64,000 nucleotides of DNA from Actinomycetota bacterium (GTDB taxonomy: Bacteria; Actinomycetota; Actinomycetes; Mycobacteriales; Micromonosporaceae), in contig VAWN01000035.1 in the NCBI GenBank assembly GCA_005885555.1, positions 1 to 64,000 of the forward strand, read 5' to 3'. Below the pieces are notes generated by a model, which was not told the origin of the DNA, made no database searches, and was given only the letters and a program-made list of their open reading frames with translations. Position 1 is the first letter of the stretch. Every line of letters begins with the position of its first letter. Of this stretch, positions 56,682 through 61,466 are shown in pieces. A program made the position numbers and the translations under genes.

Positions 56682-57767
56682 TCAGCGCCAGCGGTTGTCG
56701 GACATCTCGTAGTCGGGGCGGCGCGGGCGCGGGTTGACGGTCGCCGGCTCGTCGCGCCAGCCCTGCGTCCACGCGGCGGCGGGCTCCGGACCGGTCGCGG
56801 TGATCGCCGGCGGTTCGCCGCGTTCCCAGCGCGGCTCGGGGCGGTCCCAGTCGTTGCGCTCGTCCCGGCGTACCTGGGCCCAGCGGTCCTCGACGTGCAC
56901 CTCATCGCTGCGTACCTCGGCCCGGCGGGTGCCGATGCGCAGTTCCTGGCCGCGGTCGTCGGTGCGGGTGGCGGCCCAGCGATCGGTGCCGCCCCAGAGC
57001 GGATCGGTGGTGGGCTCGGCGGTCCAGGCGTGCGACCGCGGCTCCGCACGGTCGTAGGACTCGTCCCGCTCGTACGGGCGGGGCCGGCGCGGTTCATGTT
57101 CGGCCCGGTGGGAATCGCCGGACCGCACCTCGGCCAGCCGCTCGCGCAGCCGCTGCTCGGTCCAGGACTCCTCGGGCGGCCGGGCGCTGTGGGCACTGTG
57201 GGCGCTGTGGGCGGGCCGGGTCGCGGTGGCCGGCTCGGCGGCCCGGGTGCCGTAGACGGTACCCGACGAGCGTTCCTGGTCGACGATCATCTGCCGGGTG
57301 GTGACCTGGACGGTCTCCGTGTGCCGCACCACGCCGCCGGCCACCATCGCGCTGCCCACCGACGCCGGGGCCGGTTCCGGGGTACCGGCGCGCAGCGCCT
57401 CGACCTGGGTACGCAGCGCGTCGACGGTCTGGTACAGCGTCTGCACTTTCTCCGAGTACGCCCGGTGGGTCGCCCGTGCCGCGCCGGCGATGTCCTTGCG
57501 GATGTCTTCGCGCAGCGTGTCGATCTCGTCGTAGAGCTGGTCCTCAAGGTCGAGCCGCACGGTTACCGCATCCGGGCGCAGCATGATCGAAAGCCCGACC
57601 AGGACGACCGTGAGGATGGTCAGAACAGCGGCAACGCGCAGCCCGGCGGCGCCGGTGCTGAGCAGAAGCAGCGCGGCCGCCACCGGAGCAAGACCCACCC
57701 CGGTCCAAAACATAACTGTCGGTAACTGCCCGCCCCCCCGAGCCTTCTGGGCATTCGAGGCCGGCAT
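56682..57767 (-). CDS. Membrane protein with coiled coil, hypothetical
   Basis: A 361-residue protein with two membrane helices near the N-terminus (VMFWTGVGLAPVAAALLLL and VAAVLTILTVVLVGLSIML). A coiled coil follows (LYDEIDTLREDIRKDIAG to QTVDALRTQVEALRAG), then a long charged, disordered tail rich in Arg, Asp, Glu and Trp. ATG 57767 gives the family start MPASNAQKARGGGQLPT and has TAACCT eight bases upstream. A longer frame reaches 57854. Function unknown. Confidence 0.7.
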   Translation of the reverse strand: MPASNAQKARGGGQLPTVMFWTGVGLAPVAAALLLLSTGAAGLRVAAVLTILTVVLVGLSIMLRPDAVTVRLDLEDQLYDEIDTLREDIRKDIAGAARATHRAYSEKVQTLYQTVDALRTQVEALRAGTPEPAPASVGSAMVAGGVVRHTETVQVTTRQMIVDQERSSGTVYGTRAAEPATATRPAHSAHSAHSARPPEESWTEQRLRERLAEVRSGDSHRAEHEPRRPRPYERDESYDRAEPRSHAWTAEPTTDPLWGGTDRWAATRTDDRGQELRIGTRRAEVRSDEVHVEDRWAQVRRDERNDWDRPEPRWERGEPPAITATGPEPAAAWTQGWRDEPATVNPRPRRPDYEMSDNRWR

Positions 57768-57775
57768 GGCATCAG

Positions 57776-57781
57776 AGGTTA
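57776..57781 (-). promoter_or_regulatory. Leaderless -10 element
   Basis: On the minus strand this reads TAACCT, eight bases before ATG 57767. It is the same hexamer as that before the 46270 gene. Confidence 0.45.
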
Positions 57782-57941
57782 CCGAGACTTTCCGGATTGC
57801 GGAATGGGCCGATCTTAGCCGGTCGATCAAGGACGGTGCGTGATGGCGGGTCACAAGGCGTCAAACGATCGAGCACCGGTCCGGTTGACGAGCCGGGCCG
57901 GCCCATTTACGGACCAGCCCGGCAAAATCGCACTTTCGTGG

Positions 57942-58946
57942 TCAGCTCTGTGCAAGCGCCGCATCTGACGTCGTCACGAGGCCCATGCTGATCTGGCCGC
58001 CGTTCAGCGCCTTCTTCGTCAGCGGGCCGCTCACGTCGAGCGACTTGAACTGGCCGAACTGAATCTTGTACGTGTTCTGCAGACCCACCTGGCAGAACGG
58101 GCGCTTCGGGCACTCCGCCGGACCACCCAGGATCGAGTCCTTGCCGGAGCACTTGCTGGCGAAGTCGGACAGCGACTTCACGCCGTACTTGCTGGCGAAC
58201 GCCGTGGTGACCGCGAACGCGTTCTGGTCGTTGGCGGTGGACGCCTTGCCGAAGCTGAGCCCCACCTTGCCGCCCAGGTCCTTGAGCGCGGCCACGGTCT
58301 TGTCCACGTCGGGGGACGCGACCGGTGCGGCACTCGCCCCGTTGACCTTGCCGTTGATGAACTCGGCCAGCGTGGCGGCATACTCCGGTACCACCTGGAT
58401 CTGGCCCTTCTCCAGCGACGGCTCGTACAGTTCCCGGTTGCCGATCGCCTGGGTCGTGGCGGTGTACCCGGCCGCGGTCAGCGCGATCTTGTACAGCTCG
58501 GCGAGCGTCTGGCTCTCGCTGAAGTTCCCCGCGCCGATCACGACGGGCCCGCCGGCCCCCTTGGTGATACCACCGGTCAGATTGTTGGCCTGGGCGAACT
58601 CCTGCGCCGCCACGGCCGAGGTCTTGTGGTCGATGTCGGTCGCCTTGTTCAAGGCGATCAGTTTCTGCGGATCGAGAGTGGTGGACACCTTGTCCAGCGC
58701 CGCGATGAGTTCCGGCTTGGCCACCTTGCTGTTGACCGCTGCGATGATGTTGTCCGCGTTCTGCAGGTGCTTGTCGTCGTCGAGAAGAACAAGCTTGTCA
58801 CCGGCGACCGGCGCGCATCCGCCGGCCGCCGCGTTGCTCGCGGGTGCCTGGGTACCCGAGGAGCCGGCCTTGCCGCACCCCGCCACCAGACCCGCCGCCG
58901 CCAGAAGCCCGACCAGGCTCACAGCGACGCGCGAAACCCTCTGCAT
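57942..58946 (-). CDS. Osmoprotectant ABC transporter binding lipoprotein, circularly permuted
   Basis: A 334-residue OpuAC-type (glycine betaine/choline) binding lipoprotein with lipobox GLVAGCG (Cys24). The order of its parts is unusual. The segment LVLLDDDKHLQNADNIIAAVN...LNKATDIDHK, normally at the C-terminus, lies at residues 51-123. The usual N-terminus VVIGAGNFSESQTLAELY is at 135-152. The protein ends in QISMGLVTTSDAALAQS, which normally continues into the LDDDK segment. It delivers substrate to the two permeases (59048-60444) and the ATPase (60447). Confidence 0.88.
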   Translation of the reverse strand: MQRVSRVAVSLVGLLAAAGLVAGCGKAGSSGTQAPASNAAAGGCAPVAGDKLVLLDDDKHLQNADNIIAAVNSKVAKPELIAALDKVSTTLDPQKLIALNKATDIDHKTSAVAAQEFAQANNLTGGITKGAGGPVVIGAGNFSESQTLAELYKIALTAAGYTATTQAIGNRELYEPSLEKGQIQVVPEYAATLAEFINGKVNGASAAPVASPDVDKTVAALKDLGGKVGLSFGKASTANDQNAFAVTTAFASKYGVKSLSDFASKCSGKDSILGGPAECPKRPFCQVGLQNTYKIQFGQFKSLDVSGPLTKKALNGGQISMGLVTTSDAALAQS

Positions 58947-59047: not shown

Positions 59048-59764
59048 TCACACATTCGCCGCCGTTGCGCCGGCCCGTCGCATGCCTCGCGCGCGCCGCA
59101 GCGGCCGCGGGGTGACCAGCCGTTCGACGACTGCGAAGGTACCCTCGACCAGCAGCGCCAGTCCCGCGACCAGCAGGCCGCCCGCGATGATCTGCCCACC
59201 GGCCACGTTGATGCCCAGCCCGAAGCCCTCGGAAATGATCTCGCCGAGCCCACCGCCGGCGACCAGCGCGGCGAGCGCCGCGGTCGCGACCACCTGGACG
59301 GCGGCGGTCCGGAACCCGGCGGCCAGGTACGGCACCGACAGCGGCAGCTCCACCCGCCACAGCATCTGCCAGCCGGACAACCCCATCCCGCGGGCGGCGT
59401 CGCGGACCTGGGGGTCGACCTCGCGCAGCCCGGTGTACGCGTTGGCCAGCAACGGCGGGATCGCGAACACGGTCAACGCGAGGATCACCGCGGTCTGCCC
59501 GATGCCGAGGGCGGTCAGCGAGATCAGCGTCAGCAGGGACAGCGTCGGGACGGCCAGCGTGACGTTGGACACCGTGATCACCGCGCCGCCACCGCGCCGC
59601 CGGTGCCCGAGCCACAGCCCGAGCGGCCAGGCGATGAGGCAGCCGAGCAGCACCGCCGCGGCGGAGATCCGCAGGTGCTCGACCAGCCGGTCGAAGATCC
59701 CGCCCGGGTTGGTCCAGTTGAGCGGGTCGTTGAGCCACTGGATGGCTTGCTGAAACAGGGTCAT
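59048..59764 (-). CDS. Osmoprotectant ABC transporter permease
   Basis: A 238-residue permease with six predicted helices and the EAA loop DPQVRDAARGMGLSGWQMLWRVELPLSVPYL. It belongs to the OpuCB/ProW-like BPD_transp_1 family. ATG 59764 overlaps the stop of the upstream permease by four bases, so the two are translated together. It acts with the binding protein at 57942 and the ATPase at 60447. Confidence 0.9.
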   Translation of the reverse strand: MTLFQQAIQWLNDPLNWTNPGGIFDRLVEHLRISAAAVLLGCLIAWPLGLWLGHRRRGGGAVITVSNVTLAVPTLSLLTLISLTALGIGQTAVILALTVFAIPPLLANAYTGLREVDPQVRDAARGMGLSGWQMLWRVELPLSVPYLAAGFRTAAVQVVATAALAALVAGGGLGEIISEGFGLGINVAGGQIIAGGLLVAGLALLVEGTFAVVERLVTPRPLRRARGMRRAGATAANV

Positions 59765-60444
59765 CGCGCCCGGCTCCGGGTCCACGGGGTCAGCAGCCGG
59801 CCGAGACCGGCGAGCACCAGGTCAAGCGCGAGGCCGAGCAGGAAGATGATGATCGTCGCGGTCATGACCTCGGATTTGTACCCGGCCCGGAAGCCGATCG
59901 TCAGGAACTCGCCCAGACCGCCGTGGCCGATCAGAACCCCGACGGTGACCAGGGCGACCGTCGACACCGTGGCCAGCCGTACCCCGGTCAGGATGCCGGG
60001 CAGCGCCAGCGGCAGGTCGATGCGCCAGAGCTGGCCGAACCGGCCGTACCCCATGCCGCGCGCCGCGTCGCGCACCGGTTCGGGCACCTGGCTCAGCCCG
60101 GCGACGGTGTTGCGCACGATCACCAGCAGGGCGTAGGTCACCAGGCCCACCAGTACCGTTGCCTGCCCCACGCCGACGAACGGCGCCAGCAGGGCGAACA
60201 GCGCGAGCGACGGAATCGTGTAGAGCACGCCGGTCAATGCGAGAATCGGTCCGGTGAGCCGGCGGAACCAGTACGCCAGCACGGCCAGGGGGACGGACAC
60301 GAGGGTGGCCAGCAGCACCGCCTCGGCGGTCAACTGGGCGTGCTCGCGCAGGGCGGCCAGCACCGCGTCGGTGTTCTGCTGGAGGAACTGCCAGGAGAAC
60401 CAGGGGTTGTCCGCGTCGGCGTAGGCGAGGACCGGAGGGGGCAT
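59761..60444 (-). CDS. Osmoprotectant ABC transporter permease
   Basis: A 227-residue permease paralogous to the following one. The EAA loop is EPVRDAARGMGYGRFGQLWRIDLPLALPGI, and VLYTIPSLALFALLAPFVG is a typical helix. ATG 60444 lies two bases from the divergent GTG of the ATPase gene. The N-terminus (NPWFSWQFLQQNTDAVLAALREH) is well conserved in the family, so the start cannot move far downstream. Confidence 0.9.
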   Translation of the reverse strand: MPPPVLAYADADNPWFSWQFLQQNTDAVLAALREHAQLTAEAVLLATLVSVPLAVLAYWFRRLTGPILALTGVLYTIPSLALFALLAPFVGVGQATVLVGLVTYALLVIVRNTVAGLSQVPEPVRDAARGMGYGRFGQLWRIDLPLALPGILTGVRLATVSTVALVTVGVLIGHGGLGEFLTIGFRAGYKSEVMTATIIIFLLGLALDLVLAGLGRLLTPWTRSRAR

Positions 60445-60446
60445 AG

Positions 60447-61466
60447 GTGGACGGTACCGGTAACGGCTCGGCCGCGCCGATCACGCTGGACGGTGTCGGC
60501 AAGCGGTACCCGGACGGCACGGTCGCCGTCGAGGCGCTCTCGCTGGACATCCCGGCCGGTGAGCTGGTCGTGCTGATCGGCCCGTCGGGGTGCGGCAAGT
60601 CGACGGTACTGCGCATGATCAACCGGCTGATCGAGCCGACCAACGGGCGGATCCTGCTCGACGGCGAAGACGTGACCGGGGTACCCGCGGTCGAGCTGCG
60701 CCGCCGGATCGGGTACGTCATCCAGCACACCGGGCTGTTCCCGCACCAGACGATCCAGGCGAACGTGGCGACGGTACCGAGGCTGCTCGGCTGGCCGCGC
60801 ACCCGCGTCCGGGACCGGGTCGACGAGCTGCTCGACCTGGTGGGGCTGGAACCGGGCCGGTTCGCGAAGCGGTACCCGCATGAGCTGTCCGGCGGTCAGC
60901 AGCAGCGCGTCGGCGTGGCCCGGGCGCTGGCGGCCGATCCGGTGGTGCTGCTGATGGACGAGCCGTTCTCGGCGGTCGACCCGATCGTGCGGGTCCGGCT
61001 GCAGGACGAGTTCCGTAAGCTGCAGGCGACGGTGCGCAAGACGATCGTGCTGGTCACGCACGATCTGGACGAGGCGGTGCGGCTGGGCGACCGGATCGCT
61101 GTGCTGTCGGAGGGCGGGCACCTTCAGCAGTACTGCCCGCCGGCCGACCTGCTGGGCAGCCCGGCCAACGACTTCGTGCGCGAGTTCGTCGGCGCCGACC
61201 GGGGCATCAAGCGGCTGACCGTGACGCCGATCCCGCTGGAGGCGCTGCGCCCGGCGGCGGAGGTCGTCGGAGCGGACGGCGGCGCAGCGGACGGCGGTGT
61301 GCTGGACGGCGGCCCGTCGGTACCGGCGTCGGGCACCATGCGGGACGCGCTCGCGGCACTGCTCGAAGGCGGACGGGGTTGGGTGGCTGTCAAAGACGTG
61401 TCGGGCAAGCCGCTCGGCGTGCTCACCGCCACCGAGATCGCGATGGCGGCGAGCACGTCCGACTGA
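60447..61466 (+). CDS. Osmoprotectant ABC transporter ATPase with C-terminal CBS-like region
   Basis: A 339-residue OpuCA-type ATPase. Walker A is IGPSGCGKSTVLRMIN, the Q-loop is GYVIQHTGLFPHQTI, the signature LSGGQQQRVGVARALAADP, Walker B VVLLMDEPFSAVDP and the H-loop VTHDLDEAVRLGD. The C-terminal 60 residues (VPASGTMRDALAALLEGGRGWVAVKD) look like a single CBS motif, which senses ionic strength in OpuA. GTG 60447 is the only usable start before the first strand. Confidence 0.92.
   Translation: MDGTGNGSAAPITLDGVGKRYPDGTVAVEALSLDIPAGELVVLIGPSGCGKSTVLRMINRLIEPTNGRILLDGEDVTGVPAVELRRRIGYVIQHTGLFPHQTIQANVATVPRLLGWPRTRVRDRVDELLDLVGLEPGRFAKRYPHELSGGQQQRVGVARALAADPVVLLMDEPFSAVDPIVRVRLQDEFRKLQATVRKTIVLVTHDLDEAVRLGDRIAVLSEGGHLQQYCPPADLLGSPANDFVREFVGADRGIKRLTVTPIPLEALRPAAEVVGADGGAADGGVLDGGPSVPASGTMRDALAALLEGGRGWVAVKDVSGKPLGVLTATEIAMAASTSD

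Follow-up and report, generated by a model that had tools for sequence, protein, structure and literature searches.

Sequence evidence for natural circular permutation of an OpuAC/ProX-type substrate-binding lipoprotein in Actinomycetota

Do some actinobacterial substrate-binding lipoproteins begin with the segment that closes the chain in their relatives, and where would such a rearrangement leave the hinge and the membrane anchor? The question is raised by a gene in the window, i.e., the whole stretch of 64,000 nucleotides analyzed here (contig VAWN01000035.1, Micromonosporaceae). The open reading frame at 57942-58946 on the minus strand (ATG at 58946, stop at 57942-57944) encodes a protein of 334 aa, P0001, which the initial annotation had described as a circularly permuted osmoprotectant-binding protein with its lipid anchor on a different lobe. 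The open reading frame, residue numbers, and motifs given there all match the P0001 sequence: LVLLDDDK lies at residue 52 (the sequence after the short tether begins LVLLDDDKHLQ), VVIGAGNFSESQTLAELY at residue 135, and QISMGLVTTSDAALA close to the C-terminus. In P0001 numbering, we divided the chain into piece A (residues 133-232, the start of lobe 1), piece B (233-270), piece C (271-332), and piece S (50-123), the displaced segment. The features of the locus are as follows.

57942-58946, minus strand: gene of the permuted substrate-binding lipoprotein P0001, 334 aa, order S-A-B-C and not A-B-C-S (sequence, profile, and rotation evidence)
58875-58946, minus strand: signal peptide, residues 1-24, with lipobox LVAGC (residues 20-24), Cys24 predicted to be acylated (sequence)
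58800-58874, minus strand: tether, residues 25-49, including Cys44 (codon 58815-58817) (sequence and Cys count)
58578-58799, minus strand: piece S, residues 50-123, hinge strand 2 and the C-terminal part of lobe 1, now N-terminal (phmmer and profile matches)
58551-58577, minus strand: Gly-rich linker TGGITKGAG, residues 124-132, joining the old C-terminus to the old N-terminus (sequence)
58251-58550, minus strand: piece A, residues 133-232, N-terminal part of lobe 1 (alignment and rotation scan)
58224-58250, minus strand: putative sole remaining inter-lobe peptide crossover, residues 233-241, equivalent to the EgtUC linker 332-340 (1sw1/EgtUC alignment and borders given in PMC9732360)
57945-58223, minus strand: lobe 2, residues 242-334, i.e., the rest of piece B and piece C (sequence and alignment)
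57945-58223, minus strand: within lobe 2, Cys266 in the B/C linker (codon 58149-58151), and also Cys279 and Cys285 (sequence)
59048-59785, minus strand: ABC permease (BPD_transp_1), immediately upstream of the binding-protein gene (profile match)
59761-60444, minus strand: second ABC permease (BPD_transp_1), overlapping the first by 25 bp (profile match)
60447-61466, plus strand: ProV-like ATPase, divergent (profile match; TIGR01186, 318.9 bits, slightly below the cut-off of 326.6)

Sequence comparison confirmed that P0001 is an OpuAC/ProX-type substrate-binding lipoprotein with its C-terminal segment placed at the N-terminus. The OpuAC profile PF04069 matched residues 134-333 over profile positions 2-185 (116.5 bits; curated cut-off, 21.2) and the N-terminal segment (window 58590-58796) over positions 187-256, i.e., two stretches in reversed order, whereas the normal relative L020 matched in one stretch (2-256). 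The same reversal was found with phmmer against the EgtUC chain and against AfProX (1sw1), where residues 134-327 aligned to chain 7-192 and residues 52-121 to chain 201-271 (E 1.4e-8). When the segment was returned to the end, P0001 gave a single alignment to 1sw1 chain 8-270, with an E-value of 2.9e-12 compared with 1.4e-8 for the native order. We also scored every rotation of the mature chain with a reference HMM built from 81 normal-order actinobacterial relatives; the native order scored 251.7 bits, and the top ten rotations, starting at residues 124-133, tied at 325.8 bits. This effect was general, as rotation added 73-95 bits in 53 of 53 permuted proteins and cost 84-123 bits in all 81 normal proteins, which are the HMM's own members.

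The initial annotation had itself raised the alternative of a separate N-terminal domain without homology to the family, in which case the real C-terminal segment would simply have been lost. The segment is indeed weak by itself in a single-sequence search (11.7 bits to 1sw1). However, it contributed 72 bits over the core alone with the HMM of the 81 normal relatives (from 253.5 to 326.0 bits), whereas the core joined to shuffled segments (n = 500) reached at most 267.1 bits, a gain of no more than 14. Additionally, a single segment HMM matched ahead of the core in permuted proteins, at 100-114 bits, and after it in the normal ones, and BLAST with the segment returned, at 38-78 bits, the segments that follow the core in normal relatives. 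A separate domain is therefore excluded, and we leave it virtually no probability. In none of 134 proteins (53 permuted and 81 normal) was the segment matched with confidence both before and after the core, the only extra match being a weak one in L112 (E 0.4); rows L002 and L003 (the same gene as L001) and the second ORF of L110 were dropped. Some candidates were examined and rejected. A PF04069 match at 57741-58547, running past the stop (two TGA), was considered as a leftover C-terminal segment, but the downstream translation lacks that segment and the match is attributed to chance. Genomes G144 and G072 were considered as further permutants on the basis of partial N-terminal coverage, but in their loci, L111 and L113, the segment follows the core.

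Among the loci compared, L020, L021, and L022 were the nearest normal relatives by score for both core and segment, with identities to P0001 of 51-56% (core) and 49-53% (segment); both parts thus most simply derive from one ancestral gene. These shared neighbors argue against a fusion in which the segment came from a different OpuAC paralogue and the original C-terminal segment was lost later, without permutation of any one gene. Unlike copies could recombine, given that two genomes have adjacent binding-protein genes: L213 (G569) and L214 (G080) each have two adjacent normal-order genes by permeases of the same kind, the second copy in L214 being distant. Yet fusing near-identical tandem copies is itself permutation by duplication, for which such side-by-side genes would be raw material, and we consider fusion of paralogues quite unlikely. 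The reading that we prefer is that a gene was duplicated in tandem and fused in frame, after which the outer parts would have been lost; a linker of 8 or 9 residues connects the old termini in all 50 distinct proteins of S-A-B-C order, and no intermediate carrying the segment twice was found among the proteins compared. P0001 thus appears to be a natural circular permutant of an F-III binding protein (the cluster name is that of PMC9732360), judging from its homologous parts, their rotated order, and the single alignment obtained once they are rotated back. Overall, P0001 very probably arose by genuine circular permutation of an actinobacterial OpuAC/ProX-type (AfProX/YehZ-like) lipoprotein and serves the adjacent ABC importer.

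Structure prediction, which had been proposed as a check, gave a confident fold for the permuted chain. AF2 on 45 sequences gave a pLDDT of 95.4 and a pTM of 0.90 for P0001, with pLDDT below 50 only in model residues 1-3 (P0001 38-40); prediction from the single sequence was useless (pLDDT 34.8). In VIA-align comparisons with the AfProX/YehZ/OpuBC/EgtU-type chains listed, the model from residues 89-97 to 297 was aligned to about the first 200 residues of the chain (e.g., 4z7e: Z 15.0, 190 residues, rmsd 1.9). The top row was 2b4l, with model 1-227 aligned to chain 41-272 (Z 16.1, 190 residues, rmsd 5.2), and the Foldseek whole-chain TM-scores to solved chains were at most 0.59 among the matches listed. 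Such ranges and low TM-scores would be expected of a permutant under sequential aligners and are no proof of permutation. Swapping is a usual route for displaced segments, and a domain-swapped dimer, in which the S segment from a partner chain completes lobe 1, is compatible with the sequence. We nevertheless consider it very unlikely: the S-A linker is short throughout the 50 proteins, and the monomer model is confident nearly throughout. The permutation of a periplasmic-binding fold proposed initially is thus borne out by the sequence, the conserved clade, and the confident model.

To locate the cut, we used the lobe borders of EgtUC, in which D1 comprises residues 233-331 and 445-506 and D2 residues 341-432, with two hinge strands between them (PMC9732360). 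The aligned EgtUC chain has 277 residues, and its end was taken as residue 506; on this inferred numbering, P0001 330 corresponds to EgtUC 424 and P0001 54 to EgtUC 432, which places the cut after D2 and ahead of hinge strand 2. Read from its N-terminus, the permuted chain would pass through S (hinge strand 2 with the remainder of lobe 1), A (lobe 1), and B-C (lobe 2), and its lobes would be connected by one peptide crossover (residues 233-241) instead of the former two. Regarding the anchor, its proposed transfer to a different lobe needs revision, as the EgtUC borders put the new N-terminus at the border of lobe 2 and hinge 2, leading into lobe 1. The lipid anchor of P0001 thus seems to have moved to the hinge, not plainly to lobe 2. 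Venus flytrap action would be retained, with the lipid tether at the hinge. A lipobox-like motif is present in 50 of 50 S-A-B-C proteins.

Two cysteines are conserved in the window-type proteins. One lies immediately before the moved segment (C44, eight residues ahead of LVLL in P0001) and is present in 53 of 53 window-type proteins, the only group in which its counterpart was counted. The other is the B/C-linker Cys of lobe 2 (C266), found in 50 of 50 distinct S-A-B-C proteins versus 2 of 112 normal-order (A-B-C-S) proteins; this count leaves out the C-S-A-B proteins described below, which are cut at that linker. Conversely, C279 and C285 are invariant in alignment A1, including six normal cores, and are thus not particular to the permuted form. 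We infer that C44 and C266 are probably disulfide-bonded, which would hold the new N-terminus to lobe 2; Cys44, just before hinge strand 2, and Cys266 would then together substitute for the crossover lost at the cut. The anchor would be pinned to lobe 2 only if this disulfide forms. The cysteine pair is confined to one clade and therefore represents a single inherited evolutionary gain, not many events.

We next consider the ligand. The betaine contacts of AfProX are Y63, D109, Y111, R149, Y190, and Y214 (PMC10087775), and their equivalents in P0001 by phmmer alignment are Y189, D240, N242, R282, T325, and D65. Three of the four aromatic residues of the betaine cage are thus gone (Y111 to N242, Y190 to T325, Y214 to D65), and one is kept (Y63 to Y189). 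Across the 53 permuted proteins, the column of Y189 is Y in 53, that of D240 is D in 52 and N in one, that of N242 is N in 53, that of T325 is F in 45, L in 7, and T in one, and that of D65 is D in 53; an aromatic residue thus persists at the Y190 place in most of them but is missing throughout at the Y111 and Y214 places. A similar, more varied picture holds for the 81 normal relatives: Y in 81 for Y189; D in 69, S in 8, and N in 4 for D240; N in 63 and D in 18 for N242; F in 29, T in 19, G in 14, and others for T325; and D in 58, Q in 17, E in 5, and S in one for D65. R282 is invariant in alignment A1. D65 and N66, both in the moved segment, are invariant in 53 of 53 permuted proteins, which would fit one pocket shared across the cut. 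The ProX of Mycobacterium tuberculosis likewise has no cage; PMC5894108 describes polyphenol binding to it at 20-70 uM and states, with data not shown, that binding to betaine, choline, or carnitine was not detected. The cage is not conserved in P0001, and the term "osmoprotectant-binding" in the initial annotation is therefore doubtful. In addition, P0001 scored 43.1 bits with the OsmF equivalog NF049931, below its curated cut-off of 400. Judging from these residues, its ligand is probably something other than betaine or choline, and a "glycine betaine" or "osmoprotectant" annotation should not be read as its substrate.

The P0001 gene is the last in a run with the two permease genes (59761-60444 and 59048-59785). 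A same-strand permease was found within 600 bases upstream at 38 of 50 S-A-B-C, 90 of 112 A-B-C-S, and 9 of 11 C-S-A-B loci, and was absent within that distance from 12, 22, and 2 loci, respectively (L053 has one at 789 bases). The ATPase gene lies upstream on the opposite strand also in six longer permuted loci (L036, L038, L051, L053, L062, and L065). In the window, the permease start (ATG 60444, minus strand) and the ATPase start (GTG 60447, plus strand) are 2 bases apart in opposite directions, leaving no space for ordinary leaders; the true ATPase start may lie somewhat downstream of 60447. The window's genome contained one match to P0001 at E 0.001, and PF04069 matched the P0001 gene (split in two rows) and two weak places. 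Elsewhere in the window, a Methyltransf_28 gene (PF02636, 54405-55457) stands directly before an orphan-looking gene resembling the complex I 49-kDa subunit (PF00346, 55495-56670). NDUFAF7/MidA of the Methyltransf_28 family methylates the 49-kDa subunit in mitochondria, and the pairing is suggestive.

How widespread is the order seen in the window? In a sample biased to the window protein, 173 distinct proteins comprised 112 of A-B-C-S (hereafter ABCS), 50 of S-A-B-C (SABC), and 11 of C-S-A-B (CSAB) order, and none of the 173 had a second copy of any piece above 12 bits. The proposed survey of family members thus yielded 50 distinct proteins that share the SABC order of P0001. A scan of one genome per species over 84,980 named species, which detects close relatives only, returned 44 loci; judged by the side of the core on which the segment lies, 38 were permuted, in Micromonosporaceae, Cellulomonas, and Geodermatophilaceae (including Blastococcus), and six were of normal order, in five Streptomyces and one MAG. 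Within the window's own family, 51 of 61 genomes had a match, 47 of which were collinear over nearly the whole permuted protein; window-type proteins were present in 48 of the 61 genomes (the 47 full-length ones and one truncated at a contig end), and the other three matches covered the core only. In the window's class, at least 15 full-length window-type matches were found among 296 genomes. One permuted gene (G318:C55:42361-43365) has a single TGA inside an otherwise full-length match, either as a pseudogene or through a sequencing error. In a tblastn search of plasmids, none of 324 records had a single place covering 80% of P0001; because this search may overlook weak segments and joins pieces regardless of their order, it neither shows nor excludes permutants outside Actinomycetota.

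A search of 246 genomes of the phylum revealed the third order, CSAB, in nine that lie outside the window's class, and at least two more cases (L205 and L206) were among the matches listed for 246 genomes of the window's own class. In the class of G517, 6 of 24 genomes carried it. These 11 distinct actinobacterial proteins (L166-L174, L205, and L206; L166 and L167 are truncated by contig ends) are cut inside lobe 2, and their anchor and tether lead into lobe-2 sequence. The CSAB profile matched 27 related solved sequences in two stretches in 27 of 27 cases, whereas the normal profile matched 23 of the same sequences in one stretch, the other four being sensors with inserted GFP. G383, G407, and G412 have a normal-order copy elsewhere in the same genome as the CSAB gene. 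Other than in L167, the N-termini of the CSAB proteins have (I/V/L)AS(Q/T/K/S) ahead of an (L/M/F).(L/F)G.PP strand, and the C-termini end a few residues beyond (S/A)DLA; both ends retain part of one linker, which is weak evidence for permutation by duplication.

We counted permutation events on a tree of the re-ordered pieces (87 rows subsampled from 172, quick search; the partial L167 was dropped). The 20 window-type rows formed one clade (SH-aLRT 99). The 10 CSAB rows fell at three places among normal rows, with well-supported branches forcing at least two changes. Placing all 10 CSAB rows in one group was rejected (p-AU 0.0007), and grouping the eight from outside the window's class was compatible with the data (p 0.43); for this reason, we counted two CSAB origins and not the three places drawn on the tree. 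ABCS, being the order of the AfProX, EgtU, OpuBC, and YehZ chains, was taken as ancestral. This gives a minimum of three permutation events in the phylum, with SABC arising once and CSAB twice, barring exact reversals to normal order.

Does the permutation matter to the protein? It could be neutral, a frozen accident that affects neither anchoring nor the hinge, with a cysteine pair unrelated to the cut. Function does look unchanged, since normal and permuted relatives are alike at the pocket positions and an upstream permease is common. Conversely, the cysteine pair accompanies the permutation, window-type proteins are kept in most genomes of the window's family (48 of 61), and the permutation arose repeatedly. 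We consider neutrality plausible, at somewhat less than an even chance. Our fuller reading is that the family was permuted repeatedly at two places and that, in the window's clade, the cut lies at the hinge, leaving a flytrap held by one peptide strand and a clade-specific disulfide, with the tether at the hinge. This reading is offered tentatively, and we would put it, too, a little below the halfway mark.

P0001 can be compared with several known systems. With the AfProX/EgtU/OpuBC/YehZ-type proteins, P0001 shares the sequence family by phmmer, the core fold, and the equivalent of AfProX R149 (R282); its normal-order relatives match these chains by profile, and it likewise adjoins ProW-like permeases and a ProV-like ATPase. 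It differs from them in segment order, cage aromatics, and, by our mapping, in having one inter-lobe crossover. M. tuberculosis ProX (PMC5894108), also actinobacterial, resembles P0001 in lacking the aromatic cage. Natural permutation of such binding proteins is known already. Bacillus subtilis OpuAC (2b4l) appears, like P0001, to be a natural circular permutant, in its case relative to Lactococcus OpuAC (3l6g); the two match at E 2.2e-70 in two stretches, the better one aligning 2b4l 8-158 to 3l6g 104-255. Circular-permutation relations among glycine-betaine-binding structures were recorded by CPSARST in 2008 (PMC2395249), and the text of the L. lactis OpuAC paper makes no mention of permutation, swap, or topology.

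B. subtilis OpuAC appears to have the CSAB topology, with C first, like the second actinobacterial type. The piece HMMs placed S clearly at 78-148 and A and B marginally at 185-202 and 259-267, and did not find C; hhalign of 2b4l against the normal profile recovered S and, weakly, A, and no other piece. The VIA-align ranges described above would also fit CSAB order in 2b4l. The protein is distant by sequence, being absent from the matches of profiles A2 and A3, and its cut lies in lobe 2, in contrast to the hinge-2 cut of the SABC order. The glucose-binding lipoprotein TpMglB-2 (Tp0684, "Type Ic") is, like P0001, a permuted and membrane-tethered substrate binder, and its authors suggested that tethering may have favored permutation (PMC4990184). 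It has a Type I fold and belongs to another family, and its permutation adds a fourth crossover, whereas that in P0001 would remove one of two. In the open-access literature, we found no report of permuted actinobacterial OpuAC/ProX-type proteins, nor did we find in print the hinge-2 cut or repeated events within Actinomycetota.

Three features set these proteins apart: where the chain is cut, the fact that one family was permuted more than once, and a cysteine pair specific to one clade. Domain searches list such permutants as ordinary OpuAC matches, which is a warning for annotation. Permutants that still share about 50% identity with unpermuted relatives in both parts are well suited to studying why permutation occurs. 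Furthermore, three topologies of one binding protein occur in one phylum, mostly beside permeases of the same kind. They allow tests of three questions: does delivery to the transporter change when the anchor sits at the hinge or on the other lobe, does closure require both inter-lobe crossovers, and can a disulfide stand in for one of them?
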